Shown here in pieces: positions 29,805-60,696 of a DNA stretch of 64,000 nucleotides. Positions within the stretch are counted from its first letter, which is position 1, and the number at the start of each line of letters is the position of its first letter. The DNA is from Acetomicrobium hydrogeniformans (GTDB lineage Bacteria; Synergistota; Synergistia; Synergistales; JAFGMB01). The DNA is taken from contig JAENYO010000003.1 of the NCBI GenBank assembly GCA_016841745.1, positions 1 through 64,000 of the forward strand, read 5' to 3'. A model generated the notes under the pieces. It was not told the origin of the DNA. It saw nothing but the letters and a program-made list of their open reading frames with translations, and did not search any database. Both the position numbers and the translations under genes were made by a program.

Positions 29805-32162
29805 TTACTGTTTTGCCATTAACCTGCGATATTTGAGTTCCTCTGACTCCTTATGGCTTACATCGTCGTCCTCAAGATCGATACGTACCCAGTTGATCTT
29901 GCCCTTGAAGCGATTTTTCTCACCTTCGGGATAATCATCTGCTACAGGCAGGGCGAGATCATGGCCGATATCAAGGGTTTCGTCTGCTGAGAAAACAAAG
30001 GGTACGGTCTTCTCGATTCGGCCTTCTCCGAACAGTTCATCGTTCACGTAAAGCCGACCGGTTCCTCCGCCTCCTGGTTTGTCACCATCGAAGTTGAAAT
30101 GGTAACGTATGTTGACTTTTCCGGGAGGGAGCGGTTTCGCTGCCTCCACGTAGTAGTAATTGACGTCGAACCAGTTGTGAACGTATTTGACGATTCCCTC
30201 TTTAACGTAAAGGCTCCAGCCGGCGAAACGTCCGCCCTGGGCGATGATCACACCATCTGTCTTGTCCTTGGTGACTTCCACCTCTGCAGTCACAGTATGG
30301 GACCGGTTTTTAACGTTCAACACAGTGTTCTCCATAAGGGTGTCCATTCCGGGATAGAAGGTCATGGTCTTACGTCCGCCAGGAAGATCCGGCCGTCCTG
30401 CAACAGCAGCGTTGAAGCGCTCGTATCGCCTGTCGTCGAGTGGGAATACACCGTATTTGGCCGCTTCGATCATGAACAGGTACTGCAGTTCACGAAGTTT
30501 ATCGGGCATCTCCTTCGAAAGGTCATGGGCCTGGCTCCAGTCTTTGGTAGTGTCGTAGAGTTCCCAATCGTCTGCATCGAAGGATGGCCACTCACGTGTG
30601 AGCCATGGTGTACTGTGATGGGTGACTGCAGTCCAGCCATCACAGTAGATACCTCTATTTCCGAAGATCTCGAAATACTGGGTCCTGTGCCGATCCTCGG
30701 CGTTGGGTTTATCGAAGGTGTAAACCATGCTGACACCCTCGATGGGTTTCTGGGCACTTCCATTGACCATATAGGGTTGGGGCAGTCCTGCTGCCTCCAG
30801 GATGGTGGGTACGATGTCGATGACATGATGGAACTGCTGGCGGATCTCCCCTCTGGCTTTGATTCCCTTCGGCCAGCTGATGGCCGTGGCGTTACGGGTG
30901 CCGCCGAAGTGCGAGGCCACCTGCTTGGTATACTGGAATGGAGTATTCATGGCATGAGCCCAACCCACAGGATAGTGATTGAAAGCCCTCGGACCACCAA
31001 TTTCATCGAGCTTGGGCAGGACCTCCTCCAAAGTCTGGGGGATACCATTGAGGGCCATGAGCTCGTTTAAAGTGCCGTCCAGGCCGCCTTCGGCGCTGGC
31101 ACCATTGTCCCCGGCAATGTAGATGAACAGAGTATTATCAAATTTGCCCATTTCTTCGAGCGTCTCTATCACCCGCATTACCTGGGTATCGGTGTGTTCT
31201 GCGAAGCCAGCATAGGTTTCCATCAGCCGGGTAAAGACCTTCTTCTCAGTATCGTTCAGCTCATCCCAGGCCTTGACCCCTTCCGGGCGTGCAGTTAGAA
31301 GGGTGTCGGGAGGAACCAGTCCTTTGGCCTTCATGTTTGCCAGGGTCTCTTCCCTGATGGCGTCCCACCCCTTGTCGAATTTGCCCTTGTACTTGCTGAT
31401 CCACTCCGGGGATACATGGTGGGGGGCATGGGTGGCACCAAAGGACAGGTATAGGAAGAAGGGCTTGTCTGGAGTCATAACGTCCAGGCCCCGCATCCAT
31501 CCTATGGCTTTATCGGTTATGTCCTCCGAGAAGTGGTAGCCTTCATCGGCCGTGGCCGGGGGTTCTACCGGGCTTGTGCCCTTGAACAGGGTGGGGGACC
31601 ACTGGTTTGTCTCGCCGCCCACAAAGCCGTAGAATTTTTCAAAACCTTCGCCTGTGGGCCAACGGTCGAAGGGGCCCGACATGCTGACTTCCCAGGTAGG
31701 GGTCTGGTGTGCCTTCCCCACACAACCGGTGCTGTATCCATTGAGTCGAAGCATCTCGGCAATGGTGGCAACGGTGTTCGGTCGAATGCTGTCGTTTCCA
31801 GGTGCGCCGGTGGCAACTTCACATACTGAGCCAATTCCTGCGGAGTGGTGATTTCGCCCGGTCAACAGTGCTGCCCGGGTGGGGGAGCATAGTGCGGTGG
31901 TGTGAAAGCGGTTGTAGGTCAGGCCCTGGTTCGCTACCTTCTCCATGGCAGGCATGTTACAGGGACCGCCTGTGAGGCTCGGAGCACCGAAGCCCATATC
32001 GTCTATAAGGACAATTACCACGTTTGGCGCGTTCTTTGGTGGACGCAGCGGTTCGATGGGCGGAAATTCAGCATTTCGTGCGTCCAACGCCATCTTGCCT
32101 TTGGACGGGACATCAGGGATCGGTAGTATTTCCCGTCCTGTTACTTCCGGTTTCTGTGCCAT
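29805..32162 (-). CDS. Sulfatase 1 (arylsulfatase family, 785 residues)
   Basis: Formylglycine-dependent sulfatase. The substrate site CSPTR (Cys92) is followed by ALLTGRNHH; metal-binding Asp54-Asp55 (LIDDMG) and AGDNGASAEG (second metal site) are in place. A C-terminal beta-rich domain (about 600-760) resembles a concanavalin-like lid found in the 780-residue subgroup. There is no signal peptide, so it is probably cytosolic. Cys92 would be oxidised by the anaerobic maturase encoded at 51958. It is a paralogue of the enzyme at 54970 and could also act on phosphonate or phosphate esters. SD AGGAGA. Confidence 0.9.
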   Translation of the reverse strand: MAQKPEVTGREILPIPDVPSKGKMALDARNAEFPPIEPLRPPKNAPNVVIVLIDDMGFGAPSLTGGPCNMPAMEKVANQGLTYNRFHTTALCSPTRAALLTGRNHHSAGIGSVCEVATGAPGNDSIRPNTVATIAEMLRLNGYSTGCVGKAHQTPTWEVSMSGPFDRWPTGEGFEKFYGFVGGETNQWSPTLFKGTSPVEPPATADEGYHFSEDITDKAIGWMRGLDVMTPDKPFFLYLSFGATHAPHHVSPEWISKYKGKFDKGWDAIREETLANMKAKGLVPPDTLLTARPEGVKAWDELNDTEKKVFTRLMETYAGFAEHTDTQVMRVIETLEEMGKFDNTLFIYIAGDNGASAEGGLDGTLNELMALNGIPQTLEEVLPKLDEIGGPRAFNHYPVGWAHAMNTPFQYTKQVASHFGGTRNATAISWPKGIKARGEIRQQFHHVIDIVPTILEAAGLPQPYMVNGSAQKPIEGVSMVYTFDKPNAEDRHRTQYFEIFGNRGIYCDGWTAVTHHSTPWLTREWPSFDADDWELYDTTKDWSQAHDLSKEMPDKLRELQYLFMIEAAKYGVFPLDDRRYERFNAAVAGRPDLPGGRKTMTFYPGMDTLMENTVLNVKNRSHTVTAEVEVTKDKTDGVIIAQGGRFAGWSLYVKEGIVKYVHNWFDVNYYYVEAAKPLPPGKVNIRYHFNFDGDKPGGGGTGRLYVNDELFGEGRIEKTVPFVFSADETLDIGHDLALPVADDYPEGEKNRFKGKINWVRIDLEDDDVSHKESEELKYRRLMAKQ

Positions 32163-33629: not shown

Positions 33630-35159
33630 CTATTCCACCAGCTCGATCTCACCTGGACGCCAGGTTCTGTTGATCCATGGTTCAAGCGGCCCGTAGGCGC
33701 GCAGGATGATAAACCAGCTCTTGCCTGGAATCGTCTGTATCCAATTGTTTTCCTGACCTTCAGGTGCTTTCGGGGCGAAGTAAATATTGAAAGAACTGTC
33801 ATCGTTTTTCTTCAATTCTGTTCCTAAACTGTTGATTCCAGCGTATCTTTGATCGGTCTGGAGCATGCAGCGGGTCTGGGTGTCATAGATGATCACCGAC
33901 CAGTTGTCCTTCACGGGAACATTGGGCGGCAGGTGCAGCTTGTATGTTTTGGCGCCGTCCAGAGTCTCGTGTCTGGAGTCCAGACCTGCAATAGCATATT
34001 GTGATCCTGCACCTGGTTTGGTGAGTGCCATGGCGGGTGTTACAGCGATGGCATTGTAATGCATCCACAGACGTGAATCGAACCGCCGGGCACCGTCCTT
34101 AAGAAAATAGGTATCATTATCAGCAAAGGCCATGACCCATTCGCTGCCGGTGTCCGGGTAGTAATAATGACCCGGATCGCGTGGAACGATCGTGTTGGCC
34201 CGGGCGTATGCATTGCCTATTGCAACCGCCTCGGTAAGGATCCGCCTCATGCGAGGATCGGGGTTGAACTGTTTGTCCTTTACAATCCCGATAGATGCGA
34301 TCTGGCCTCTTGTTTCAGGATCGAGAAAATCGAGAGGTTCCTCCTGGATCAAAGTGTTCAGGTCTTCGTAGAAGCTGAAGTCGTTGGGCGGAACTGTGTT
34401 GTACTCATCCCTGCCGGTCATGTTTATGAACACCATCTTTGGGGGATTATCCTGTTTTGCCAGCGGGTACACTTTCAGATTGTTCTTGATATTGTCGGCG
34501 GCGGCCTTTACGCTGTCTCTGACGTATCCGCGCATCATGTTCCATACGCCGTAAGTCTTTGACTTCACCACGTAATACCCGTCAGGAACGTCGCCTGTGT
34601 AACCCGGGGGAAGAACCAGGTATTTCCCGCCCTTGCCCTTGTCGGGGCCGGCCGCGCCCATGTCAGCAATGTAACGGAAGTACATGTCGTCCAGGATGCC
34701 CAGCACATCAGGAGGCAGTTTGATAACGGTGGGGCCGTCCTTTTTGAGATCGAGAAAACCCCAGGTGTAAAGGGAGGTGTTATTGCCGGTAAGCACCAGC
34801 GACTTGGAATCCATCAATTCTTCCCAGATGAGGATCTGGTTGTATTCCATTGCACCCATATCGCGTTGTCCCTTACGTAGATTGAACATGGAAACTGCCG
34901 GTATCATGTTGATGAACACCTCAACCGCCCTTGCGCGGTCTACATAATCATAAACTGTTTCGATAGTTTCCCTGGTGGGTACCCCATCAAAGAAATGGAA
35001 TGCTCCGACAGGTGTTTCCACCTTGTCATTAGTGGTAATCTGATGAGGTGTTGGCATGGTCATCTTCATTGTGGGCAACTCCGCATAGATGGTGGATGTC
35101 ATGCAGATGAGGATCAGCCCGGCCAATATAAGCGAGAATATTTTTCCCTTTTTCATCAT
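33630..35159 (-). CDS. DUF1254/DUF1214 secreted protein, type A copy 1
   Basis: 509 residues. Signal peptide (about 7-26), leader PTMKMTMPTPHQIT, DUF1254 (about 50-215, with YDYVDRARAVEVFINMIP and GPDKGKGGKYLVLPPGY) and C-terminal DUF1214 (about 390-505, WSVIIYDTQTRCMLQTDQ and WINRTWRPGEIELVE). The fold is a beta-sandwich protein family of unknown activity, widespread and often clustered. I cannot assign a substrate. Start ATG 35159 after AAAGGAG. First gene of the array as read left to right, last as transcribed. Confidence 0.88.
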   Translation of the reverse strand: MMKKGKIFSLILAGLILICMTSTIYAELPTMKMTMPTPHQITTNDKVETPVGAFHFFDGVPTRETIETVYDYVDRARAVEVFINMIPAVSMFNLRKGQRDMGAMEYNQILIWEELMDSKSLVLTGNNTSLYTWGFLDLKKDGPTVIKLPPDVLGILDDMYFRYIADMGAAGPDKGKGGKYLVLPPGYTGDVPDGYYVVKSKTYGVWNMMRGYVRDSVKAAADNIKNNLKVYPLAKQDNPPKMVFINMTGRDEYNTVPPNDFSFYEDLNTLIQEEPLDFLDPETRGQIASIGIVKDKQFNPDPRMRRILTEAVAIGNAYARANTIVPRDPGHYYYPDTGSEWVMAFADNDTYFLKDGARRFDSRLWMHYNAIAVTPAMALTKPGAGSQYAIAGLDSRHETLDGAKTYKLHLPPNVPVKDNWSVIIYDTQTRCMLQTDQRYAGINSLGTELKKNDDSSFNIYFAPKAPEGQENNWIQTIPGKSWFIILRAYGPLEPWINRTWRPGEIELVE

Positions 35160-35237
35160 TATCTCTCCTTTGTTCTCCAGATTTTTGCAAGCTGTGGCTT
35201 GCTTATCGAAGATCTGTTGCCTGCTTTTTTTGATTTT

Positions 35238-36782
35238 TTATTTCAGCAGTTCAAAGTCGTTCATCACCCAGGTCTTCTCGATGTAGCCCTCCAGTGGCCC
35301 GTAGAAACGGAAAACCACGAAGAAGCCCTTGTCGGGATCGGTCTTGATGAAGTTTTTCTCCTTGTCCTTGGGTGCTTTTGGGCCGAAATAGACATCCACC
35401 GAGCCGTCCGGGTTGGCATCCACCCCGCGTGTGCTGCTGATCGTGATGTTGCCGCCTGAATCCAGCAGGCTGCGGCTCATGGGATCGTAAGCCGTGACCG
35501 CCCAGAAACGTTTGACCGGCGGGTTGGGCGGAACGCGCAGCCGGTAGGTCTTGTCGCCCAGCAGGTAGGCGCCGTCCTTGTCCCGAAAACAGGTCAGGTA
35601 GGCAGTACCCACACCCGGAGTGGTGGAGAGCAGATTCGGTGAAACACAAATGGCCTGGTAGTGCCAGAGGGTCCGGGCATCAATATCACTGTGGCCGTTG
35701 ATCATGAACGCAGTATTGCGAATAAACATCTTTTCCCAGTGCCTGTTGGACCAGTAGTTGATCTCCGGGTCCCTTGAGGCGTAAACGATGGCACGAGACA
35801 TGGCTACCCCCTGTTTTGCAGCCTGGTCAAAGATGCCTTTCATCCGCACATCCGGATTGAAGGGCTTGCCCTTCTCGATGCCCAGTGTAGCCAAACGACC
35901 AAGCAGTTCCTTGTCAAAGAGCGATGTGGGCTCATACTGGATGATCTCGTTGAGCATTTCAAAGACAGAACCGTCTTCCAGCGGTAGTGTGTTGGCGCCG
36001 ATGCCGGATGTATTGGTGGCTGTGTGTTCCCGAGGCCTAGTGAACAAGGGATAAACCTTAAGACGATCCTTGAACCACTGAACGGCCTGCTCGCCGGTAC
36101 CGACCTCACCGAAGCCCCGCATCATGGCCCAGATCCGGTATCCGGGGGATTCCAATACAAAATATCCGTCCGGCACCTTGCCCTTGTACCCCGGGGGCAG
36201 GAACAGGTATTTGCCGCCCTTGCCCTTGTCGGGTCCGGTGGGTCCGAAGTCGGTGAGGTACTTGAAGATGGCGTCGTTGGCATTGCCGTACATGCCGGGC
36301 GGGATCTCCACCACCGTGGCTCCGTCCACCTTCAGGTCGAGGGTGGCGAAGGCGTAGACCGTGACGTCGTTGCCGGTCAGGTAGTTCTCGCTAGGCTTCA
36401 TGAAGTCTGCCATCACTCCAATGTCTGAAGGGGTCTTGAACCCGAAGTCCCGAACCTGCGACTTGACGATGCCGTAGAGCGAAAGGGCTGGAAAGAAGTC
36501 CATGTAGGTCTGGGTGGCGCGCTGCAGATCCATTTCGTCGTATATCTTCTGCACAGAGGCTTTATCCGGAAACGCGCCGCCTTTGAATTCCAGCGTACCG
36601 AAATTTGTTTGAATCTTGTCTGGTGCCGGTTTGAAGTCCTTTGCAGTCTGCTTCTGACCAGCGGTCTTAAACAGGTTTCTCGTTTCTGCTGAATTGTCGG
36701 CCTTCTGCGCCCACACGGGGGCCATCAGGCAAACGGCAATAAACAAGATTAGGATTGCTGTGGATAATTGTTTCATTTTCAT
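35238..36782 (-). CDS. DUF1254/DUF1214 secreted protein, type B copy 1
   Basis: 514 residues. Signal peptide (about 5-25), a linker containing FKPAPDKIQTNFGTLEF, DUF1254 with YDEMDLQRATQTYMDFFPAL and GPDKGKGGKYLFLPPGYKG, and DUF1214 ending YIEKTWVMNDFELLK. Together with the copy at 42274 it forms a subgroup (shared DLQRATQ and FKPAP) distinct from the YDY/YDF-type copies. The final motif (VMNDFELLK) departs from the TWRPGEIELV consensus. 78 bp separate it from the next gene downstream. Confidence 0.88.
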   Translation of the reverse strand: MKMKQLSTAILILFIAVCLMAPVWAQKADNSAETRNLFKTAGQKQTAKDFKPAPDKIQTNFGTLEFKGGAFPDKASVQKIYDEMDLQRATQTYMDFFPALSLYGIVKSQVRDFGFKTPSDIGVMADFMKPSENYLTGNDVTVYAFATLDLKVDGATVVEIPPGMYGNANDAIFKYLTDFGPTGPDKGKGGKYLFLPPGYKGKVPDGYFVLESPGYRIWAMMRGFGEVGTGEQAVQWFKDRLKVYPLFTRPREHTATNTSGIGANTLPLEDGSVFEMLNEIIQYEPTSLFDKELLGRLATLGIEKGKPFNPDVRMKGIFDQAAKQGVAMSRAIVYASRDPEINYWSNRHWEKMFIRNTAFMINGHSDIDARTLWHYQAICVSPNLLSTTPGVGTAYLTCFRDKDGAYLLGDKTYRLRVPPNPPVKRFWAVTAYDPMSRSLLDSGGNITISSTRGVDANPDGSVDVYFGPKAPKDKEKNFIKTDPDKGFFVVFRFYGPLEGYIEKTWVMNDFELLK

Positions 36783-36847
36783 TTTCTCCTTCTTCCGTTT
36801 GGTGGGATGAGCGCTAACCCCACCAACTTTTATTTGGTTCTGTTAAG

Positions 36848-38386
36848 CTATTTAACCAACTCGATCTCACCCGGCCGCCAGGTCTGGTCGATCCACGGCT
36901 GTTCGGGGCCATAGATGCGCAGGGCGATGAACCAGCTCTTGCCGGGGATGGTCTGGAGCCAGTTGCCTTCCTTGCCTTTGGGTGCTTTGGGCGCAAAGTA
37001 GATGTCCATGGAGCCATCCGCATTCTTCTTGATCCCTTTGTCCTGGCTGCCAAGCGTCGGGAACTGCTGGTCGGTCTGCAGTTGCGAGCGTGTCTGGGTG
37101 TCGTACATGGTGATTGCCCAGAAGTCTTTCGCAGGCGGGTTCGGCGGAATCCGGAGGCGATACGTCTTGGATCCATCCAGAACCTTGCCCTCGGAATCGA
37201 GCATTCCCATGGAATAGTCCGATCCTTTGCCGGCAACGGTCATGGCCATGGCGGGAGAAACGCAGATATAGCCGAAGTGGAAAAGGACGCGCGGATCGAG
37301 GCGATAGGCACCGTTGCGTGTGAAGGTGGTGTCCTTGTCGGCGTAGGCGGTAACCCAGGCATTGCTGTTCTTGAAGGTCAAATTGCCGGGGTCACGCGGG
37401 AAGTAGCTGATGGAGCGGGCGGCTCCGTTGCCGATGGCGGCAGCATCGGTCAGGATTTTCTTCATGCGGGTGTCAGGATTGAAGTCCTTACCCTTTTCGA
37501 TGCCGATGGCAGCCATCATTCCCCTTGCCTCCGGACCAAGATAGTCATCCGGCTCGGTCTGGATCAGAGCATGCAGTTTCTCAAACGCGCTGTAGTCATT
37601 GGGGACGATCACGTGCATGTCCTTGCCGGACACGTTGATGAACTCCGTCGCTGGCGGGTTTTGCACGGTCGACAGCGGGTAAACCTTCAGTGTGTTACGA
37701 ATGTTTTTTGACGCGGCCGGGATAGCCTTCTCGATCGGCAGGGTCTTATCGAGATAGCCGCGCATGAATACCCATACACCGCTGGTTTTGGAAGGGACTT
37801 CGAAGTAGCCTTTGGGAATTTCGTCTTTGTATCCGGGAGGCAAGACGAGGTACTTTCCGCCTTTGCCCTTGTCAGGGCCAGCGACGCCGAGGTCAACCAT
37901 GTACTTGAAAGCCATGTCATCAAGAATTCCAAGCATCCCCGGTGGCAGATCTATGACAGTTGGACCGTCTTTGAGGAGGTCAAGGAACCCGAGAGCGTAC
38001 ATCGTTGATGTATTGCCGGTCAGCAGGATGGTCTTGGAGTCCATCAGGTTGTCAAAGATGCATATCTTATTGCAGGTATCTGCGCCCATGGCGGCCTGTC
38101 CTTCGCGCAGGGCGTTCATGGACAGGGCGGGGATCGAGTTGAGAAAGACGTTCACGGCCCGCGACGTGTCTAGATAGTCGTAGATGGTCTCGGTGCTTTT
38201 CTCGCTGGGTACTCCATCGAAGTAGTGTAGCTCCCCGATTGAGGTCTCAACCTTGTCAGGTGCGGTATAGGTTTTCGGAATGTCGGTGGTCATCTTCATT
38301 TTGGGTGGAGTCGCCCATGCCCCTGCTGTAAGAGTTACAATAATTGAACAGGTTATGATGACCAGTTTAATTTTTTTCATATTCAT
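36848..38386 (-). CDS. DUF1254/DUF1214 secreted protein, type A copy 2
   Basis: 512 residues with a signal peptide (about 7-26), leader PPKMKMTTDIPKTYTAP, DUF1254 (YDYLDTSRAVNVFLNSIPAL, GPDKGKGGKYLVLPPGYKD) and DUF1214 (WAITMYDTQTRSQLQTDQQ, WIDQTWRPGEIELVK). Close to the copy at 33630. The leader is nearly the same as that fused to the HAD hydrolase at 39572. An AGGAGG-type site lies before the ATG at 38386. Confidence 0.88.
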   Translation of the reverse strand: MNMKKIKLVIITCSIIVTLTAGAWATPPKMKMTTDIPKTYTAPDKVETSIGELHYFDGVPSEKSTETIYDYLDTSRAVNVFLNSIPALSMNALREGQAAMGADTCNKICIFDNLMDSKTILLTGNTSTMYALGFLDLLKDGPTVIDLPPGMLGILDDMAFKYMVDLGVAGPDKGKGGKYLVLPPGYKDEIPKGYFEVPSKTSGVWVFMRGYLDKTLPIEKAIPAASKNIRNTLKVYPLSTVQNPPATEFINVSGKDMHVIVPNDYSAFEKLHALIQTEPDDYLGPEARGMMAAIGIEKGKDFNPDTRMKKILTDAAAIGNGAARSISYFPRDPGNLTFKNSNAWVTAYADKDTTFTRNGAYRLDPRVLFHFGYICVSPAMAMTVAGKGSDYSMGMLDSEGKVLDGSKTYRLRIPPNPPAKDFWAITMYDTQTRSQLQTDQQFPTLGSQDKGIKKNADGSMDIYFAPKAPKGKEGNWLQTIPGKSWFIALRIYGPEQPWIDQTWRPGEIELVK

Positions 38387-51560: not shown

Positions 51561-51971
51561 ATGTATATTTTCTCAAGTAAGTTTCTGGATGACCTGGCAG
51601 CTCGGATAACAGGCCCCATGAGTTTCAGGTTTTTCGTCCAGCCTATGGTGGCAATAATGCTGGGAATTCGTGATGGGAAGCTGGATTCAAAGGCAGGAAC
51701 GCCTCCCTTTCTCTATAACGTTATCTTTAAAAAAGAAAACTATAGAAGCCAGTTAAGAAATGCCCTTCATGCCCTTTTGAAACCTGTAATTGTAGGAATC
51801 GTCCTTGATGCCCTAGCTCAATACCTTATTTTCAAGCATATCCGCCCCCTCCCGGCACTATTGGTGGGAACCTTCATTATGGGAGTTCCCTATTCGCTTT
51901 CCAGGGGAATATCCAACAGGATCTTTTCAAAGATCAGGACAAAAAAGGAGACTTTTCATGATAAACCGTGA
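51561..51971 (+). CDS. Small membrane-associated protein, unknown function
   Basis: 136 residues. The N-terminal half is soluble, with basic stretches (FFVQPMVAIMLGIRDGKLDS), and the C-terminal half has two hydrophobic segments (about 68-88 and 93-110) ending in a basic tail. I do not recognise a family. It overlaps the start of the maturase gene by 14 bases, so the two are translated together. Confidence 0.6.
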   Translation: MYIFSSKFLDDLAARITGPMSFRFFVQPMVAIMLGIRDGKLDSKAGTPPFLYNVIFKKENYRSQLRNALHALLKPVIVGIVLDALAQYLIFKHIRPLPALLVGTFIMGVPYSLSRGISNRIFSKIRTKKETFHDKP

Positions 51972-53187
51972 TGACCGTCCAGCTTTTCATGTGATGTCAA
52001 AACCTACGGGAGCAAGGTGCAATATGAACTGCGCCTACTGTTTCTTCCTGAAAAAGGCCAACCTTTACCCGGGAAGCGATTTCACCATGTCCGATGAACT
52101 CATGGAAATGTACATAAGGCAGACCATCGAGGCCCACCGGATCCCCCGGGTGACCATTGCGTGGCAGGGGGGTGAACCTACTTTGATGGGAGTGGACTTC
52201 TACCGCAGGGCCATGGAAGTGGAGAAGAAGTATGCCAGGCCCGGCATGACCTTCGAAAATACCATCCAGACAAACGGTACCCTCATAGACGAAGAATGGT
52301 GCCAGTTTCTGAAAGAAAACAATTTTCTGGTGGGGCTGAGCCTGGATGGACCCAGAAAATTCCACGACATGTACCGTCTGGACAAGGCAGGAAAGAGTGT
52401 TTTCAAAAGGGTGGTCAAGGCTGCCAGGCTGATGCAGGAATGGGGTGTGGAGTTCAACATCCTTTGCACTGTGAATTCTGCCAACAGCAGACATCCCCTG
52501 GAGGTCTACCATTTCTTCCGCGACGAGATGAAGACCCCCTACCTCCAGTTCATCCCCATTGTCGAAAGGGACAATGAAACCGGAAACCAGGAAGGCACAA
52601 CCCTAACGGACCGGACTGTGGACCCTGATCAGTACGGCAGGTTCCTTAACACAATCTTTGACGAATGGGTAAGAAATGACGTGGGTAGTATGTTCATCCA
52701 GATGTTCGATGCCACCGTAGCTTCATGGATCAGAGGGTACTCATCCATATGCATATTTCGTCCCACCTGCGGCGACGGGGTCGCCCTTGAACACAACGGT
52801 GACGTCTATTCCTGCGATCATTTCGTTGAACCTGCCCATCTCCTTGGTAATATCACAGAAACCCCTGTGGGAGAACTGGTACGTTCGGAGAAACAGGCAG
52901 CCTTTGGCAGGGCCAAGTCGGAGACCCTTCCCAGGTACTGCCGGGAGTGCGAATACCTCTTCGCCTGTAATGGTGAATGTCCCAAGAACCGGGTACTGAA
53001 AACACCTGATGGAGAGCCAGGCCTCAACTGGCTCTGTTCGGGGCTGAAGGCATTTTTTGTCCATACTGCACAGCCCATGCAGATAATGGCGGAGCTGTTA
53101 AGTAAAGGACATTATGCCGACGAGATCATGGATATTCTGGCCATGGAGGAGAAGTCATCTGCAACTCCTCTGCGTAAGCAGATGTGA
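51958..53187 (+). CDS. Anaerobic sulfatase-maturating radical SAM enzyme
   Basis: 409 residues. Radical SAM motif CNMNCAYCFFLKK (Cys21, Cys25, Cys28), the family contact WQGGEPTLM and C-terminal SPASM-type cysteines binding two auxiliary clusters (CGDGVALEHNGDVYSCDHF, CRECEYLFACNGECPKNR, LCSGLKAFF). Such enzymes oxidise the sulfatase active-site Cys or Ser to formylglycine without oxygen. Three Cys-type sulfatases are in the window, two directly downstream on the same strand. AAGGAG precedes ATG 51958, which lies inside the previous gene. Confidence 0.93.
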   Translation: MINRDDRPAFHVMSKPTGARCNMNCAYCFFLKKANLYPGSDFTMSDELMEMYIRQTIEAHRIPRVTIAWQGGEPTLMGVDFYRRAMEVEKKYARPGMTFENTIQTNGTLIDEEWCQFLKENNFLVGLSLDGPRKFHDMYRLDKAGKSVFKRVVKAARLMQEWGVEFNILCTVNSANSRHPLEVYHFFRDEMKTPYLQFIPIVERDNETGNQEGTTLTDRTVDPDQYGRFLNTIFDEWVRNDVGSMFIQMFDATVASWIRGYSSICIFRPTCGDGVALEHNGDVYSCDHFVEPAHLLGNITETPVGELVRSEKQAAFGRAKSETLPRYCRECEYLFACNGECPKNRVLKTPDGEPGLNWLCSGLKAFFVHTAQPMQIMAELLSKGHYADEIMDILAMEEKSSATPLRKQM

Positions 53188-53335
53188 GCTATATTCCCAT
53201 CCTGAGCGGAAGGGAAAGATAGATGGTACAACTAGATAAAATGGAATAGTTCAAGCCGTAATAACATCCTTCTTACTGATGGTATCTATATTTTGCTCTG
53301 GTTTGACGATTTTTCAGAAAGGGAGGTGTAAAGAA

Positions 53336-54826
53336 ATGGCTAATAAAAAGCCGAATATCCTCATTATATGGGGAGATGATATAGGATGGTGGAACATAAG
53401 CTACAACAGCAGGGGGCAGATGGGGTACCGGACCCCGAACATTGACAGGATAGCAAACGAAGGGGTTGCCTTTACCGATTACTATGCCCAGCAGAGCTGC
53501 ACTGCCGGCAGGGCTGCCTTTATAACCGGCCAGAATCCCATCCGGACAGGGCTGACCAAAGTGGGCATGCCTGGAGCAGTTGTGGGTATGCCCGCAGAAG
53601 ATCCTACAATAGCAGAGCTGCTGAAACCCATGGGCTATAAAACGGGGCAGTTCGGGAAGAATCACCTTGGTGACAGAGACGAGTTTCTCCCCACCATGCA
53701 TGGTTTTGATGAGTTTTTCGGCAATCTGTACCATCTGAATGCTGAAGAGGAGCCTGAAGGTCCGGATTATCCAAAAGATCCTAAGTTCAGAAAGCGGTTC
53801 GGCCCCCGGGGTGTGTTACACTGCCATGCCGATGGAAAAGGCGGACAGAAGATCGAGGATACCGGGCCGCTGACCAGGAAACGGATGGAGACCATCGACG
53901 ATGAGGCCACCGGCCATTCCCTGCGTTTCATAGAGGATGCTCACAGGGAGGACAAACCCTTCTTTGTATGGTACAACACGACGGCTATGCATTTCCGGAC
54001 ACACGTTGCTGAAAAGCATAAAGGCAAGAGTGGCCAGGGATTCTACAACGATGCCATGGTTGCTCATGATGAACATGTTGGCGAACTGCTGAATAAGCTG
54101 GACGAACTGGGAATAGCGGATAAAACCATTGTAATGTACTCCACAGATAATGGACCACACTATAACACCTGGCCTGATGCCGGAATTACCCCCTTCCGCA
54201 GTGAGAAGAACACCAACTGGGAAGGCGGCTGGAGGGTACCAGCCTTTGTGCGCTGGCCCGGGAAGATCGAGGCAGGGTCGGTCCTGAACGGGATCGTGTC
54301 TCATCAGGACTGGCTGCCCACACTTTTGGCAGCGGCAGGAGATCCGGACGTGAAAGATAAGCTTCTCAAGGGCTGTAAGGTGGGGGAAAAGACCTTTAAC
54401 TGTCACATCGACGGTTTTAATATGCTGCCCTATCTCACGGGTGAAGTGGAAGGAAGCCCCCGGGAGAGCTTTTTCTACATCAGTGATGATGGTGATGTCC
54501 TGGCTATCCGGCACAAAGACTGGAAGGCTGTGCTCATGGAACAGCGAGAGAGACAATTATTCTGCTGGTTTGAGCCCTTCGTGAAGCTTAGAGGCCCCAA
54601 GATTTTCAATCTTCGCAGGGACCCCTTCGAGAGGGCAGACCACAACTCGAATACTTACTGGGACTGGCTGATCTCCCACGCTTACCTGATCTACGGAATG
54701 CAGGCACTGGTTGCGGATCAGATCGAATCCTTCAGGAATTTCCCTCCCCGGCAGAAACCGGCATCCTTCAATCTGGATGCAGTGCTTGAACAACTTGAGG
54801 ACAACAGCGGCAGCGGAAAGCATTAG
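53336..54826 (+). CDS. Sulfatase 2 (arylsulfatase family, 496 residues)
   Basis: Alkaline-phosphatase-superfamily sulfatase of standard length. The formylglycine site is CTAGR (Cys55), which fits CxAxR, followed by AAFITGQNP; metal Asp14-Asp15 (WGDDIG) and STDNGPHYNTWPDAG are as expected. No signal peptide. The start is fixed by GGGAGGTG in front of ATG 53336; the frame is open to 53279. Closest to the arylsulfatase A-like clade; the substrate is unknown. A clear terminator follows at 54832. Confidence 0.9.
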   Translation: MANKKPNILIIWGDDIGWWNISYNSRGQMGYRTPNIDRIANEGVAFTDYYAQQSCTAGRAAFITGQNPIRTGLTKVGMPGAVVGMPAEDPTIAELLKPMGYKTGQFGKNHLGDRDEFLPTMHGFDEFFGNLYHLNAEEEPEGPDYPKDPKFRKRFGPRGVLHCHADGKGGQKIEDTGPLTRKRMETIDDEATGHSLRFIEDAHREDKPFFVWYNTTAMHFRTHVAEKHKGKSGQGFYNDAMVAHDEHVGELLNKLDELGIADKTIVMYSTDNGPHYNTWPDAGITPFRSEKNTNWEGGWRVPAFVRWPGKIEAGSVLNGIVSHQDWLPTLLAAAGDPDVKDKLLKGCKVGEKTFNCHIDGFNMLPYLTGEVEGSPRESFFYISDDGDVLAIRHKDWKAVLMEQRERQLFCWFEPFVKLRGPKIFNLRRDPFERADHNSNTYWDWLISHAYLIYGMQALVADQIESFRNFPPRQKPASFNLDAVLEQLEDNSGSGKH

Positions 54827-54831
54827 TAATT

Positions 54832-54868
54832 TTGGGGGTATTAATAAAATGCCCCCAATCATTTTTTC
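54832..54868 (+). terminator. Rho-independent terminator after sulfatase 2
   Basis: TTGGGGG (54832-54838) pairs with CCCCCAA (54852-54858), followed by a T-tract (54861-54866). The next sulfatase, at 54970, must then have its own promoter or depend on read-through. Confidence 0.8.
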
Positions 54869-54969
54869 TTGTTGAGAGATACATATTTGACAACAATATC
54901 ATTTCCCTTTTCCTGTTTATAGAATTTTAATTCTCTCCTTGAAGAAAAAGTGGAAAGGAGATAATGGAA

Positions 54970-57336
54970 ATGGATGAGATAAGGGAATACAAGCCGGGAA
55001 CTCCTTTTCCCGGCAAAATAGGAAGGACTCTTGATGAATCCACATCAGCCTGGCCTTCACCTTTAAGGGCAAAGGAGGGTTCTCCCAATATCATTTTCTT
55101 CGTCCTTGACGATGTGGGTTTCGGGCAGCTTTCTCCCTTTGGCGGCCTGGTTGAGGTTCCCAACCTTGAGCGTCTGGCCAAAAGGGGACTCAGATATACC
55201 AATATGCACACCACAGCCCTTTGTTCCCCGACCCGAGGCTGTATTCTTACGGGCCGAAACCATCATACCCTTGGGCTATCTGCTATAACGGAACTTTCAA
55301 TGGGTTATCCCGCCCATAATGGCATGGTGGGCCTGGAACATGGTTTTGTTCCGGAGATCCTGCAGGAAAGAGGCTATAACACTTTCTGCATAGGTAAATG
55401 GCATCTTACCGCTCCTGAGGAAACGACCCCTGCCGGTCCATACCGCGGATGGCCCCTTGGACGCGGTTTTGAGAGATATTATGGTTTCATGGGTGGTGAT
55501 ACGGACCAGTGGTACCCCGATCTAACCTATGACAACCATAATGTAAATCCGCCTAAGACTCCTGATGAGGGTTATCATCTTAATATCGATCTGGCAGATC
55601 ACGCCATAGACTTTATCCAGGATGCCCATGTGAATGCCCCCGACAAGCCCTTCTTCCTTTACTACGCTACCGGTGCTGGCCATGCTCCCCACCATGTGGA
55701 GAAGGAGTGGGCCGATAAGTACAAGGGCAAATTCGACATGGGATGGGACAGGTACAGGCAGACAGTCCTGGAGAAACAGAAAGAAATGGGGATAGTCCCC
55801 CCCGAAACGATACTGTCCGAGAGAGATCCTGATGTAGCCGCCTGGGATAGTCTCTCCGATGTGGCAAAAAGAGTGTATGCAAGGCAGATGGAAGTATTTG
55901 CAGGATTTATATCCCAGACGGACTATCACTTCGGCCGGATACTGGATTTCCTGGAGAAGCTCGGGGAACTGGATAACACCATGGTGGTTGTCATATCCGA
56001 CAACGGAGCAAGTGCCGAGGGAGGTCCCGATGGTTCCATCAACGAGGGTCTTTTCTTCAACCATGTACCTGAAAAACTGGAAGACAACGTCGCTGCCATC
56101 GATCACTGGGGAGGTCCTGATACATTCTGCCATTACTCCTGGGGATGGACATGGGCCGGAAATACCCCCTTCCGCCGATGGAAGAGAGAAACCTACCGGG
56201 GAGGAATCAGTGACCCCTGTATTGTCTATTGGCCCAGGGGAATAAAGGCAGCGGGGGAAACCCGTGGCCAGTTTGCCCACGCAATAGATTTACTTCCAAC
56301 AGTTCTGGAAGCCCTGGAGATCGAACCTCCTGAAACAATAAGAGGGGTCGCCCAGTCCGACATCCAGGGGGTAAGTTTTGCCCATACCTTCAACAAAGGA
56401 TCTGCCGAGAGCAGGCACGTGACCCAGCATTTCGAGATGTTCGGCCATCGTTCCATCTACCATGACGGCTGGAGGGCCGTATGTCCCTTCCCCGGACCAA
56501 GTTTTGTCGAGGCGGCAACAAAGGGGAGGGCCTTTGGAAGCCCCCTTACGGCTGAAATACTGAAAGATCTTGATAAGAATGGCTGGGAACTCTATCATGT
56601 GGCGGAGGATCCTTCGGAGAGAAATAACCTGGCTGATAAGGATCCTGAAAAGCTGAATGAAATGATTCAGCGATGGTATACAGAGGCGGGCAAATACGGA
56701 GTACTTCCGTTGGCAACGGCAGATATGAGCCGTATGAACGTTCCAAGGCCCAAGATCTCAAAGGACAGGAGTACCTTTACCTACTATCCGGGCGGATCCC
56801 CCGTTCCCTTTGCAGCCACCCCCAGAGTTTTCAACAGGTCTCACAGCATAACTGCCGAAGTGGAGATCCCTGAAGCTGGTGCCGAAGGGGTTCTTCTGGC
56901 CCATGGAAACCGTCATGGCGGTTATGCTCTCTACATTAAAGATGGCAGACTCCATTATGTTCACAACTACCTGGCATTGGAGAAATTCAGGGTTTCCTCC
57001 CCTGACAAGTTGCCTGCTGGAAAGCTTTCTCTCCGCTATGAATTTGAGCCCACCGGCAAACCTGATTTTTCAGTAGGGAAGGGTTCGCAAGGAAAGGGAC
57101 AGCTCTATGTCAATGGAAAACTTGTTGCAAACGTTGAGTTCCCCTATACTGTTCCCTCAAGTTTCGGGATCATAGGTCTCAGCTGCGGTTATGATGCGGC
57201 AGATTCAGTGGTGCCTGAGGATTACAAGGGAGCATTTGAATTTACAGGCACCATAGATCATGTGACCATAGATGTTTCAGGAAACCTTATTCAGGATGAC
57301 GAGGCTGAAATGAATAAACTTATGATGAAACAGTGA
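54970..57336 (+). CDS. Sulfatase 3 (arylsulfatase family, 788 residues)
   Basis: Paralogue of sulfatase 1: CSPTR at Cys85 (TALCSPTRGCILTGRNHH), metal Asp in FFVLDDVGFG, SDNGASAEGGPDGS and a C-terminal beta-rich domain (about 615-785) with NGKLVANVEFPYTVP. No signal peptide. AAGGAG at 54955-54960 is nine bases before ATG 54970; ATG 54964 is three bases away and less likely. Its stop overlaps the open frame of the sulfate transporter gene, whose likely start is 68 bp downstream. Confidence 0.9.
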   Translation: MDEIREYKPGTPFPGKIGRTLDESTSAWPSPLRAKEGSPNIIFFVLDDVGFGQLSPFGGLVEVPNLERLAKRGLRYTNMHTTALCSPTRGCILTGRNHHTLGLSAITELSMGYPAHNGMVGLEHGFVPEILQERGYNTFCIGKWHLTAPEETTPAGPYRGWPLGRGFERYYGFMGGDTDQWYPDLTYDNHNVNPPKTPDEGYHLNIDLADHAIDFIQDAHVNAPDKPFFLYYATGAGHAPHHVEKEWADKYKGKFDMGWDRYRQTVLEKQKEMGIVPPETILSERDPDVAAWDSLSDVAKRVYARQMEVFAGFISQTDYHFGRILDFLEKLGELDNTMVVVISDNGASAEGGPDGSINEGLFFNHVPEKLEDNVAAIDHWGGPDTFCHYSWGWTWAGNTPFRRWKRETYRGGISDPCIVYWPRGIKAAGETRGQFAHAIDLLPTVLEALEIEPPETIRGVAQSDIQGVSFAHTFNKGSAESRHVTQHFEMFGHRSIYHDGWRAVCPFPGPSFVEAATKGRAFGSPLTAEILKDLDKNGWELYHVAEDPSERNNLADKDPEKLNEMIQRWYTEAGKYGVLPLATADMSRMNVPRPKISKDRSTFTYYPGGSPVPFAATPRVFNRSHSITAEVEIPEAGAEGVLLAHGNRHGGYALYIKDGRLHYVHNYLALEKFRVSSPDKLPAGKLSLRYEFEPTGKPDFSVGKGSQGKGQLYVNGKLVANVEFPYTVPSSFGIIGLSCGYDAADSVVPEDYKGAFEFTGTIDHVTIDVSGNLIQDDEAEMNKLMMKQ

Positions 57337-57404
57337 CATTGTGGAAGATGGCCTGGAACATTTCAACCGGTTCCGGGTCATCTTTTTTATCAGGGAGCGC
57401 TCTT

Positions 57405-59090
57405 ATGAAAATAAGTTCTGTAAAATTGTCAGATCTTTTCCCCATACTGGAATGGCTTCCGCGCTACAGGTCTGAGTGGTTTCCCTCCGATCTTATAGCG
57501 GGTCTTACCGCTTCTGCCGTGGTAATTCCCAAGGCCATGGCCTACGCCACAATTGCTGGTCTCCCAGTAGAGGTTGGACTCTATGTCGCTTTTCTTCCCA
57601 TGGTCATATACGTATTGATGGGGACTTCCAGGGTCCTGAGCGTGAGTTCCACCTCTACCATAGCCATTCTTGTTGCTGCTGAACTGTCCATGATCTCTAA
57701 AGGAATGGCTCCACAGGAGATCGTAGCAGCTGCTGCCATGCTGGCCTTACTTTCCGGGGTCTTCATGTTCCTCGCAGGTGTTTTGCACCTTGGTTTTATA
57801 GGGAATTTTATTTCCGACCCTGTCCTTGCGGGTTTTAAATCGGGTATTGGTCTGGTAATAATACTGGATCAGGTTCCCAAGCTTCTGGGGATCCATATCG
57901 ACAAGGCCGGATTTTTCAGGGATATACTTTCCATCCTTTATCATGTTCCGGAAACTGTCCCTGCTACTCTCTGTGTTTCTATACTTATGATAGCTCTTCT
58001 GATTTTCTTCAAGCATTCAATTCCCAAAGCCCCGGGACCTCTTTTTGCGGTCATAACAGGAATACTCCTTTCCTTCATTCTGGGTCTGGATCGATGGGGA
58101 GTTGAACTGATCGGCGAGGTTCAGGCTGGCCTCCCTGCCCTGAAAATGCCGGACTTGTCTCTTGCTCCCGTCCTTTGGCCTGCTGCTATTGGCATATCAC
58201 TCATGTCCTTTACAGAAACAGTTGCTGCCGGGCGGACTTTTGCCCGTCATGGTGATCCCCGGTCTGTTCCTGACCAGGAACTGAGAGCGCTGGGTATAGC
58301 CAATATGGTGGGGGCCTTTTCCCAGGCCATGCCCGCCGGAGGAGGAACATCCCAGACCGCTGTCAACAGTAATGCAGGTGCCCGTACCCAAGTCTCTCAG
58401 GTGGTCACAGTTGTTGTGGTTCTGGGGGTGCTCATGTTCCTTTCCCCTGTTATCGAGCTCATGCCCAAGGCTACCCTGGCAGCAGTGGTAGTGGCTACTA
58501 CCATAGGACTTCTGAACCCCAGAGATTTTCAAGCCATAAGAAGGGTGAGGGAAACCGAGTTCTGGTGGGGGATCGCAGCATTCGCAGGAGTGGTTTTTCT
58601 GGGAACCTTGAATGGGATCCTCGTGGCCGTGGCCATATCTCTCGTAACACTTCTGTACCAGGCCAACCATCCTCCCCTGTATGTGGTAGGCAGAAAACCT
58701 GGTACCCGGATATTCCGTCCCCTTTCCCAAAAGCATCCTGAGGACGAGACCTTGCCGGGCCTGCTTGTTGTTCGAACAGAGGGGCGTATGACCTTTGCCA
58801 GCGTACCAAGACTGGGTGAGAAAATGTGGGGTTTTATTCACAAATACGAACCCCGGGTTCTCATATTTGAAATGTCGGCTGTCCCGGACATAGAATATAC
58901 GGCCCTCAGGGTAATGACCGAATTCGAGGAAAAGCTGTCGGAAGCAGGCATAGAACTCTGGCTTGCAGGTCTGAACCCGGAACCTTTGAAGTTAATGGAA
59001 AACGCCCCTCTTGGAGAGATCCTTGGACAGGAAAGGATGTTCTACAACCTCAACAATGCAGTAGAGGTTTTTGAGAAAAGGGAGGGATGA
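57405..59090 (+). CDS. SulP-family anion (sulfate) transporter
   Basis: 561 residues. About 10-12 membrane helices with the SulP signature near the start (PKAMAYATIAGLPVEVGLY) and MGTSRVLSVSSTSTIAILVAAEL, then a C-terminal STAS domain (about 450-555, with IFEMSAVPDIEYTALRVM). Carries sulfate or another anion, usually with H+ or Na+. ATG 57405 follows GGGAG; a GTG at 57333 would overlap the sulfatase stop but lacks a good site. Genetic coupling suggests transport of the sulfate released by the sulfatases; direction (uptake or release) is not known. Confidence 0.9.
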   Translation: MKISSVKLSDLFPILEWLPRYRSEWFPSDLIAGLTASAVVIPKAMAYATIAGLPVEVGLYVAFLPMVIYVLMGTSRVLSVSSTSTIAILVAAELSMISKGMAPQEIVAAAAMLALLSGVFMFLAGVLHLGFIGNFISDPVLAGFKSGIGLVIILDQVPKLLGIHIDKAGFFRDILSILYHVPETVPATLCVSILMIALLIFFKHSIPKAPGPLFAVITGILLSFILGLDRWGVELIGEVQAGLPALKMPDLSLAPVLWPAAIGISLMSFTETVAAGRTFARHGDPRSVPDQELRALGIANMVGAFSQAMPAGGGTSQTAVNSNAGARTQVSQVVTVVVVLGVLMFLSPVIELMPKATLAAVVVATTIGLLNPRDFQAIRRVRETEFWWGIAAFAGVVFLGTLNGILVAVAISLVTLLYQANHPPLYVVGRKPGTRIFRPLSQKHPEDETLPGLLVVRTEGRMTFASVPRLGEKMWGFIHKYEPRVLIFEMSAVPDIEYTALRVMTEFEEKLSEAGIELWLAGLNPEPLKLMENAPLGEILGQERMFYNLNNAVEVFEKREG

Positions 59091-59947: not shown

Positions 59948-60568
59948 TTATCTGTAAAGCTTAAGTTCATCCAGTGCCATGGAGATCTCCTCGTAATTCA
60001 GGCTCTTTGAGAAGAGATCGTCATGGCTCACCTGGGTATACCGGATGATGTCATTTTCGTCGACGATAAAAAGTCCCCTGGCGAGAAGCCTTATCTCCTC
60101 CAGAAGAACACCCCAGTCCTTTCCGAAACTTCCGTTGAGGTGATCTGAGAGAAATACCGCATTTTCAATTGCTTTTTCCTCCCTGTATCTTTTGAGGGCA
60201 TAGGGAAGATCCACACTCACGTTGATGATGACCACATTCTCCTTGAGATCGCCAGCCTGACCGGCCAGCCACTGGATCTGGCTCATTCAGGTAGGAGTGT
60301 CGATGGAAGGCATGACGGAGATAACCATGATCTTTCCCTTGAATGTCTCTTTTGAAACAGTGTTACTATCCACATCAAGAAGTTCAAATCCGGGAGCCTT
60401 GTCTCCCACTTTCAGTTCTGAACCCGCAAGAGTCAGGGGTTTATCATTGAGGGTCACAAGGCCGCAACGGGAACTCGGTTCCTGGGCAAAGCCCCCAGTC
60501 AGTAAAAGTGCAGTTAGAATAAAAGTTACAAGCAATAGCAGAGCCGGAATTCTTTTAAGATCTATCAT
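59948..60568 (-). CDS. tpx: Selenocysteine thiol peroxidase (Tpx-like) with signal peptide
   Basis: Read through an in-frame TGA at 60289-60287, the gene encodes 206 residues with Sec94. The site reads SIDTPT-Sec-MSQIQ, where thiol peroxidases read SIDTPVC; the TGA therefore sits at the peroxidatic position. Thiol-peroxidase traits flank it: LAGSELKVGDKAPGFELLD before, NVVIINVSVDLPYALKRY and GLFIVDENDIIRYTQV after. The Tpx resolving Cys (in RFCG-like sequence) is replaced (RYREEK), so it probably works as a 1-Cys-type selenoenzyme. Residues 5-29 form a signal peptide, so it is likely periplasmic or lipid-anchored, unlike E. coli Tpx. SD AGGAGGG. Confidence 0.85.
60264..60282 (-). promoter_or_regulatory. 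Putative SECIS hairpin of the peroxidase gene
   Basis: Four bases after the TGA on the minus strand, GCCAG and CTGGC (60282-60278, 60268-60264) form a stem around a nine-nt loop, the size and position of bacterial SECIS elements. The stem is shorter than the one at 5758. Confidence 0.5.
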
Positions 60569-60635
60569 TTACTATCCCTCCTGTGTTTACATTATGCATA
60601 ACACTACTATGTTAAATTACAGAATAACAAAAGTA

Positions 60636-60663
60636 AAGGGGCCCGAAAAGATCCGGGCCCCTT
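60636..60663 (-). terminator. Terminator of the opine-dehydrogenase-like gene
   Basis: AAGGGGCCCG (60636-60645) pairs perfectly with CGGGCCCCTT (60654-60663). On the minus strand the hairpin is followed by ACTTTTGTTATT. It lies just after the stop at 60697 and before the peroxidase start at 60568. Confidence 0.8.
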
Positions 60664-60696
60664 CTGTTAATGATCTGATTGATTTTTGATATGTAT

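Follow-up and report, generated by a model that had tools for sequence, protein, structure and literature searches.

The tpxU locus

The window analysed here is a stretch of 64,000 nucleotides from Acetomicrobium hydrogeniformans (Synergistota), and the gene under study, tpxU, lies on its minus strand at positions 59948..60568, with an ATG at 60568 and a TAA at 59950-59948. Translation from 60568 to 59948 gives 206 codons with a sole in-frame TGA, codon 94 (60289-60287), and then the TAA stop. The 206-residue product (TpxU) was delimited from this translation, a match to the thiol peroxidase (Tpx) family NF001808 and an ortholog (L041) from another genus of the same family (genome G001), which is 75% identical and has TGA at the same codon. 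The TGA (60287..60289, minus strand) stands at the peroxidatic position of the motif, PxxxTxxU, where selenocysteine (Sec, U) is predicted, and the ATG of codon 95 (Met) directly abuts it. The preliminary description, which gave no strand, had put a TGA at codon 94 in place of the peroxidatic Cys; this position is exact, while the motif it quoted, SIDTPV-C, reads PSIDTPT-U.

Upstream of tpxU are genes for an opine dehydrogenase and a TRAP-type binding protein, and downstream those for a sulfate permease and an unassigned 263-aa protein. No conserved operon was found around tpxU, its neighbours in G001 not being those of the A. hydrogeniformans genome. A terminator-like hairpin (60635..60664, minus strand) lies between tpxU and the upstream opine dehydrogenase gene, and a 13-nt block upstream of tpxU, TGTAATTTAACAT (60609..60621, minus strand), is identical in G001 and has one exact match in the window; together these suggest that tpxU is a single-gene unit. 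The block is possibly part of a promoter or operator. A sigma-70-like promoter for tpxU was sought on the coding strand and none was found. An Rfam search of the window at the gathering threshold returned no match, and a phage-family search returned one weak match, to a family without a name.

Elsewhere in the window, a radical SAM/SPASM protein, two sulfatases and a SulP-type sulfate permease are encoded in a row at 51958-59090 (plus strand), in what looks like an anaerobic sulfatase-maturation cluster, and a further sulfatase lies at 29805-32162 (minus strand). At 33630-38386 (minus strand) three DUF1254/DUF1214 paralogs, each about 510 aa long, follow one another in tandem.

TpxU as a thiol peroxidase

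The assignment to Tpx made in the preliminary description is borne out by NF001808 (NCBIfam thiol peroxidase), with 135.6 bits against a cut-off of 123 for TpxU and 144.4 bits for the ortholog. The best PDB sequence matches of TpxU are all Tpx, and its predicted structure (mean pLDDT 89.8) aligns with the Tpx crystal structures of E. coli (3hvv) and S. aureus (3p7x) with Z 26-27 over 163-164 residues; Foldseek likewise points to Tpx. Residues P87, T91 and R164 of the PxxxTxxC motif and its associated Arg are retained, with Sec in place of the Cys. Arg164 (60077..60079, minus strand) is invariant in 15 aligned peroxiredoxins (Prx), and presumably has the active-site role of this residue in the superfamily. 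In known Tpx structures the resolving Cys (C_R) lies in helix a3 (PMC5302317). Alignment places Arg129 (60182..60184, minus strand) at this site in both Sec forms, in agreement with the reported loss of the resolving Cys. TpxU is a Tpx by sequence and fold and, judged from these residues, not an atypical 2-Cys Tpx by mechanism.

Compared with Tpx proper (NF001808 / PRK00522), TpxU shares the common fold, the PxxxTxx(C/U) motif with its Arg and the N-terminal hairpin, whereas it has Sec for the peroxidatic Cys, Arg for the resolving Cys, a signal peptide and an extra Cys35. Like Prx-SUH (NF045827) it is a Sec-containing Tpx relative, but it scores 85.3 bits against a cut-off of 298 for that family, and the motif, CxxU in Prx-SUH, is TxxU followed by Met in TpxU. 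A table of 119 selenoprotein families has one thiol peroxidase, Prx-SUH (CxxU), and a generic peroxiredoxin (TxxU) (PMC13188914). PrxU and the TxxU Sec peroxiredoxins of the Eubacterium acidaminophilum type also have Sec at the peroxidatic position, with TxxU in common, but are of another Prx subfamily (TpxU scores 33.4 bits with NF040737, cut-off 270). Two proteins from a Deltaproteobacteria MAG (L024) and a Nitrospira MAG (L034), again of another Prx subfamily and at 25-31% in alignment, carry TGA as the peroxidatic codon and begin with a probable signal peptide; on these predictions, TpxU is not unique simply in being an exported Sec peroxiredoxin. Two exported Cys Tpx lipoproteins (L151, L152) share with TpxU the Tpx domain, export (lipobox identified by eye) and the loss of the resolving Cys, but they have Cys rather than Sec, are lipoproteins, form a separate lineage in the tree and have no Cys35.

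Tpx relatives with Sec (Prx-SUH) already exist, as do exported Sec peroxiredoxins from other subfamilies, and what appears to be new within Tpx is the combination of Sec, export, a lost C_R and a gained Cys35, with a cytosolic Cys paralog alongside. No literature on a Sec Tpx of the TpxU type was found, which is not proof of its absence in print.

The resolving cysteine and Cys35

A strongly hydrophobic N-terminal extension was present in 4 of 98 Tpx loci surveyed (97 distinct genes, L146 and L200 being the same gene; L155 was omitted as a copy of L137), namely the two Sec forms, L151 and L152, in a sample that was not random, as loci were picked for a long N-terminal match, for being a second copy or for a low rank among the matches. 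The resolving Cys is absent from all four exported proteins, which represent two lineages and not four cases since the lipoprotein pair is separate in the tree, and it is present in 92 of the 94 non-exported proteins and absent from two; a Fisher p for this association ignores shared lineage. L151 (G213) and L152 (G425), the lipoprotein Cys thiol peroxidases without a resolving Cys, belong to a second phylum, that of genome G185.

TpxU had also been called a secreted, 1-Cys-type enzyme. This is upheld in part, by the signal for export and by the absence of the canonical resolving Cys, and the '1-Cys' label is not certain, because the conserved Cys35 (60464..60466, minus strand), absent from cytosolic homologs, could be a relocated resolving residue. 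It is the sole further Cys of the mature protein, is Thr in the cytosolic paralog of the same genome and is kept in the G001 ortholog, which has one additional Cys near its C-terminus. TpxU might then work as a two-residue peroxidase of an atypical kind: Cys35, which sits in a flexible N-terminal tail just before strand bN1, would form a selenylsulfide with Sec94 of the same or a neighbouring subunit, to be opened by thioredoxin. Conservation of Cys35 in the two Sec forms, which have also lost C_R, is in keeping with this, as is its alignment with residue 2 of E. coli Tpx and, in a Yersinia Tpx crystal, the lack of density for the first two residues (PMC3288085). The tail is nevertheless distant in sequence from Sec94, and the exported lipoprotein Tpx of the second phylum have also lost C_R yet have no such Cys; we regard the arrangement as possible, if on the unlikely side.

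Predicted export signal and location

The predicted signal peptide (residues 1-28; 60485..60568, minus strand), claimed in the preliminary description and again recognised here, contains a 20-residue hydrophobic run with a best 13-residue Kyte-Doolittle mean of 2.96, and residues 4-24 are a helix in the model. By inspection, a plausible signal peptidase I site with small residues at -3/-1 is present, GFA|QE in TpxU and TFA|Q in G001. A BamA-like match in the genome, though under the family cut-off, suggests that the organism is a diderm cell; the 'periplasmic' of the preliminary description, taken to mean a soluble form, is tentative. If the N-terminal helix were left uncleaved, TpxU would stay tethered to the inner membrane on its outer side, in the manner of the thioredoxin TrxU described below. 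The model helix and the uncleaved-looking anchor of TrxU itself (by eye) are compatible with tethering, but the small -3/-1 residues in both genomes suit signal peptidase I, and we think it rather unlikely that the helix is retained.

Predicted selenocysteine at codon 94

The literature presents Synergistota as rich in selenoproteins (PMC13188914, PMC9312934). The check for Sec machinery proposed earlier found it complete in the A. hydrogeniformans genome, with tRNA-Sec(UCA) (77.9 bits, anticodon TCA), SelB (361.8 bits), SelA (556.1 bits, its gene adjoining that of SelB) and SelD (327.6 bits), the last itself with one in-frame TGA. A tRNA-Sec is present in G001 too. The in-frame TGA of tpxU is aligned with a redox Cys and is kept in this second species, as expected of a bacterial selenoprotein.

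Bacterial SECIS (bSECIS) elements follow a rule for the distance of the loop from the TGA and for a G in the loop. A hairpin of this kind lies at 60251..60269 (minus strand), with a 7-bp stem and a 5-nt loop, GGUCA, situated 24 nt after the TGA, and the G001 ortholog has a SECIS-like hairpin as well, along with its signal peptide and lost resolving Cys. A bSECIS-like score was defined by a loop 13-37 nt after the TGA, G in the first two loop bases and a contiguous stem; it was devised after both Tpx hairpins had been seen and was then applied unchanged to thioredoxin loci. Among 39 Tpx loci, the two with TGA scored -10.6 and -10.0 kcal/mol, TpxU being the top, and the best of 37 Cys loci scored -5.3. 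All 17 TGA thioredoxin loci scored from -5.5 to -8.7, while 10 of 11 Cys thioredoxin loci were at -3.8 or weaker and one at -6.1 (two further loci did not match the pattern); the selD gene of the same genome scored -8.4. In the window as a whole, 16 of 2349 TGA triplets reached -10 kcal/mol, and the tpxU TGA scored best among those with at least 45 open codons before and at least 60 after. In dinucleotide shuffling the 47-nt tpxU fold was not unusual (z -0.55), the 31-nt hairpin segment gave z -1.91 and the 47-nt G001 stretch with its hairpin z -0.31. As these z-scores are weak, the evidence for the hairpin, which had been noted behind the TGA from the outset, is comparative. In the A. hydrogeniformans genome an alternative pair of hairpins competes with it.

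Nei-Gojobori (NG86) estimates between tpxU and its G001 ortholog were dN 0.18 and dS 1.08 before the TGA (65 codons, from residue 29) and dN 0.18 and dS 1.60 after it (112 codons). The low dN/dS after the TGA indicates that the downstream half is constrained as protein. Relatives with a true stop at this codon, named beforehand as what would speak against Sec, were looked for, and the G001 ortholog keeps the TGA. A broken or split tpxU, with the TGA as a real stop and the second half dead or re-initiated at the following ATG, is highly improbable and was rejected, for although the 112-aa downstream frame opens with that ATG in both genomes, no purine-rich ribosome site precedes it (by eye), neither half amounts to a complete fold, the genome has Sec machinery and the gene a SECIS-like hairpin, and the TGA at the catalytic codon is kept in two genera with purifying selection on both halves.

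Distribution and origin

A search of 185 Synergistota genomes gave a Tpx match at E <= 1e-15 in 68, and TGA at the peroxidatic codon was found only in A. hydrogeniformans and G001, two of these 68 Tpx-bearing genomes. Four other Synergistota Tpx with an internal stop (L056, L057, L066, L090) proved on reading to have Cys. In the search for Sec Tpx in other phyla, which comprised 24 contig loci, the three of Tpx type (L016-L018) have Cys. In the phylum of G185, 183 of 395 genomes had a Tpx match at E <= 1e-18, and among the matches listed, three were flagged for TGA (G233, G341, G550); each has Cys as its peroxidatic residue, and the flagged TGA precedes the start.

Both genomes with a Sec Tpx also encode an ordinary cytosolic Tpx with both cysteines (L077, L078). 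In a tree of 58 rows the Synergistota Tpx clade (support 99/96) includes the Sec pair, whose branch has a length of 2.2, and because of this long branch its exact placement is unsure. Horizontal origin of tpxU is not favoured, as the Sec pair falls inside the clade. Our reading is that tpxU is probably a fast-diverged duplicate in which Sec, Cys35 and a signal peptide were acquired and C_R disappeared.

A candidate reductant

The preliminary description proposed a look for an export-compatible reductant nearby. Nothing redox-related adjoins tpxU, but an operon of CcdA and an anchored selenothioredoxin lies elsewhere in the genome. The selenothioredoxin gene, trxU (L096, contig C10, 2597..2187, minus strand), is directly upstream of ccdA, the only CcdA/DsbD-type match in the genome, and encodes 136 aa with a thioredoxin fold, an N-terminal membrane anchor and a TUPAC motif with U from TGA. 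On the same contig piece, at about 815..265 (minus strand), two near-identical tandem T-box-like leader stretches (GGTGGTACCGCG) were seen by eye ahead of a semialdehyde-dehydrogenase-like gene.

The G001 trxU locus likewise has U and ccdA. Of the best 30 TrxU relatives in the phylum, 17 carry U and the other 13 carry Cys, and at 26 of the loci there is a match to ccdA; Sec and Cys thus vary at this site across the phylum, and the trxU-ccdA operon is a good system for the study of Sec/Cys exchange. In two genomes of other genera (G069, G085) a TGA-bearing Prx lies 2-5 kb from trxU-ccdA; that of G069 has a likely start, MVEKKK, which gives no signal peptide, and a longer reading would give one. 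No literature was found on a CcdA-selenothioredoxin pair, which again does not prove its absence in print.

TrxU (UPAC), predicted to lie on the right side of the membrane, is a credible best candidate for the reductant of TpxU, and a relay from CcdA through TrxU to TpxU is offered as a hypothesis. TrxU-CcdA is common in the phylum, including genomes without a Sec Tpx, and is not near tpxU; because it is so widespread there, TrxU is not a dedicated partner of TpxU and the link is circumstantial.

Proposed function

The best explanation, and in our judgement a probable one, is that TpxU is a Tpx made with Sec, exported and reduced by an external donor, most likely TrxU/CcdA, with a cytosolic 2-Cys Tpx for the cytoplasm. 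The peroxidatic TGA and its conservation, the Sec machinery, the predicted export signal and the missing canonical resolving Cys can all be read from the genome sequences; that only two of the genomes searched carry a Sec Tpx bears against the explanation. SelB with tRNA-Sec would read the tpxU TGA by means of the hairpin behind it. Sec94, placed by the Pro87/Thr91/Arg164 active site, would reduce H2O2 or organic peroxides to water or alcohol outside the inner membrane and would itself become a selenenic acid. Since helix 3 offers no canonical resolving Cys, reduction of the oxidised Sec94 would have to come from a thiol or selenol outside the protein, or in a first step from Cys35. The likeliest donor would be membrane-anchored TrxU (UPAC), held in its reduced state by electrons that its operon partner CcdA passes across the membrane, while the cytoplasm would be served by the separate cytosolic 2-Cys Tpx.

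More tentatively, and short of calling it probable, we suggest that CcdA, TrxU (UPAC) and TpxU may form an all-selenium peroxide relay outside the inner membrane of an anaerobe, in which the resolving residue was given up as a selenol donor replaced it; with the Cys lipoprotein Tpx of the second phylum, loss of C_R on export would then be a rule for exported Tpx in general.

The use of selenocysteine carries a high cost, and there is debate over the selective advantage that it brings. In a single genome, a Cys Tpx of the cytosol stands here beside an exported Tpx with Sec, so that Sec was gained together with export and the resolving Cys was lost along with them. This offers a natural test of whether Sec persists in places that demand resistance to hyperoxidation and in which reduction depends on a thioredoxin fed through the membrane and not on the pool in the cytosol, and it is a pointer to how anaerobes may handle peroxide in the envelope.
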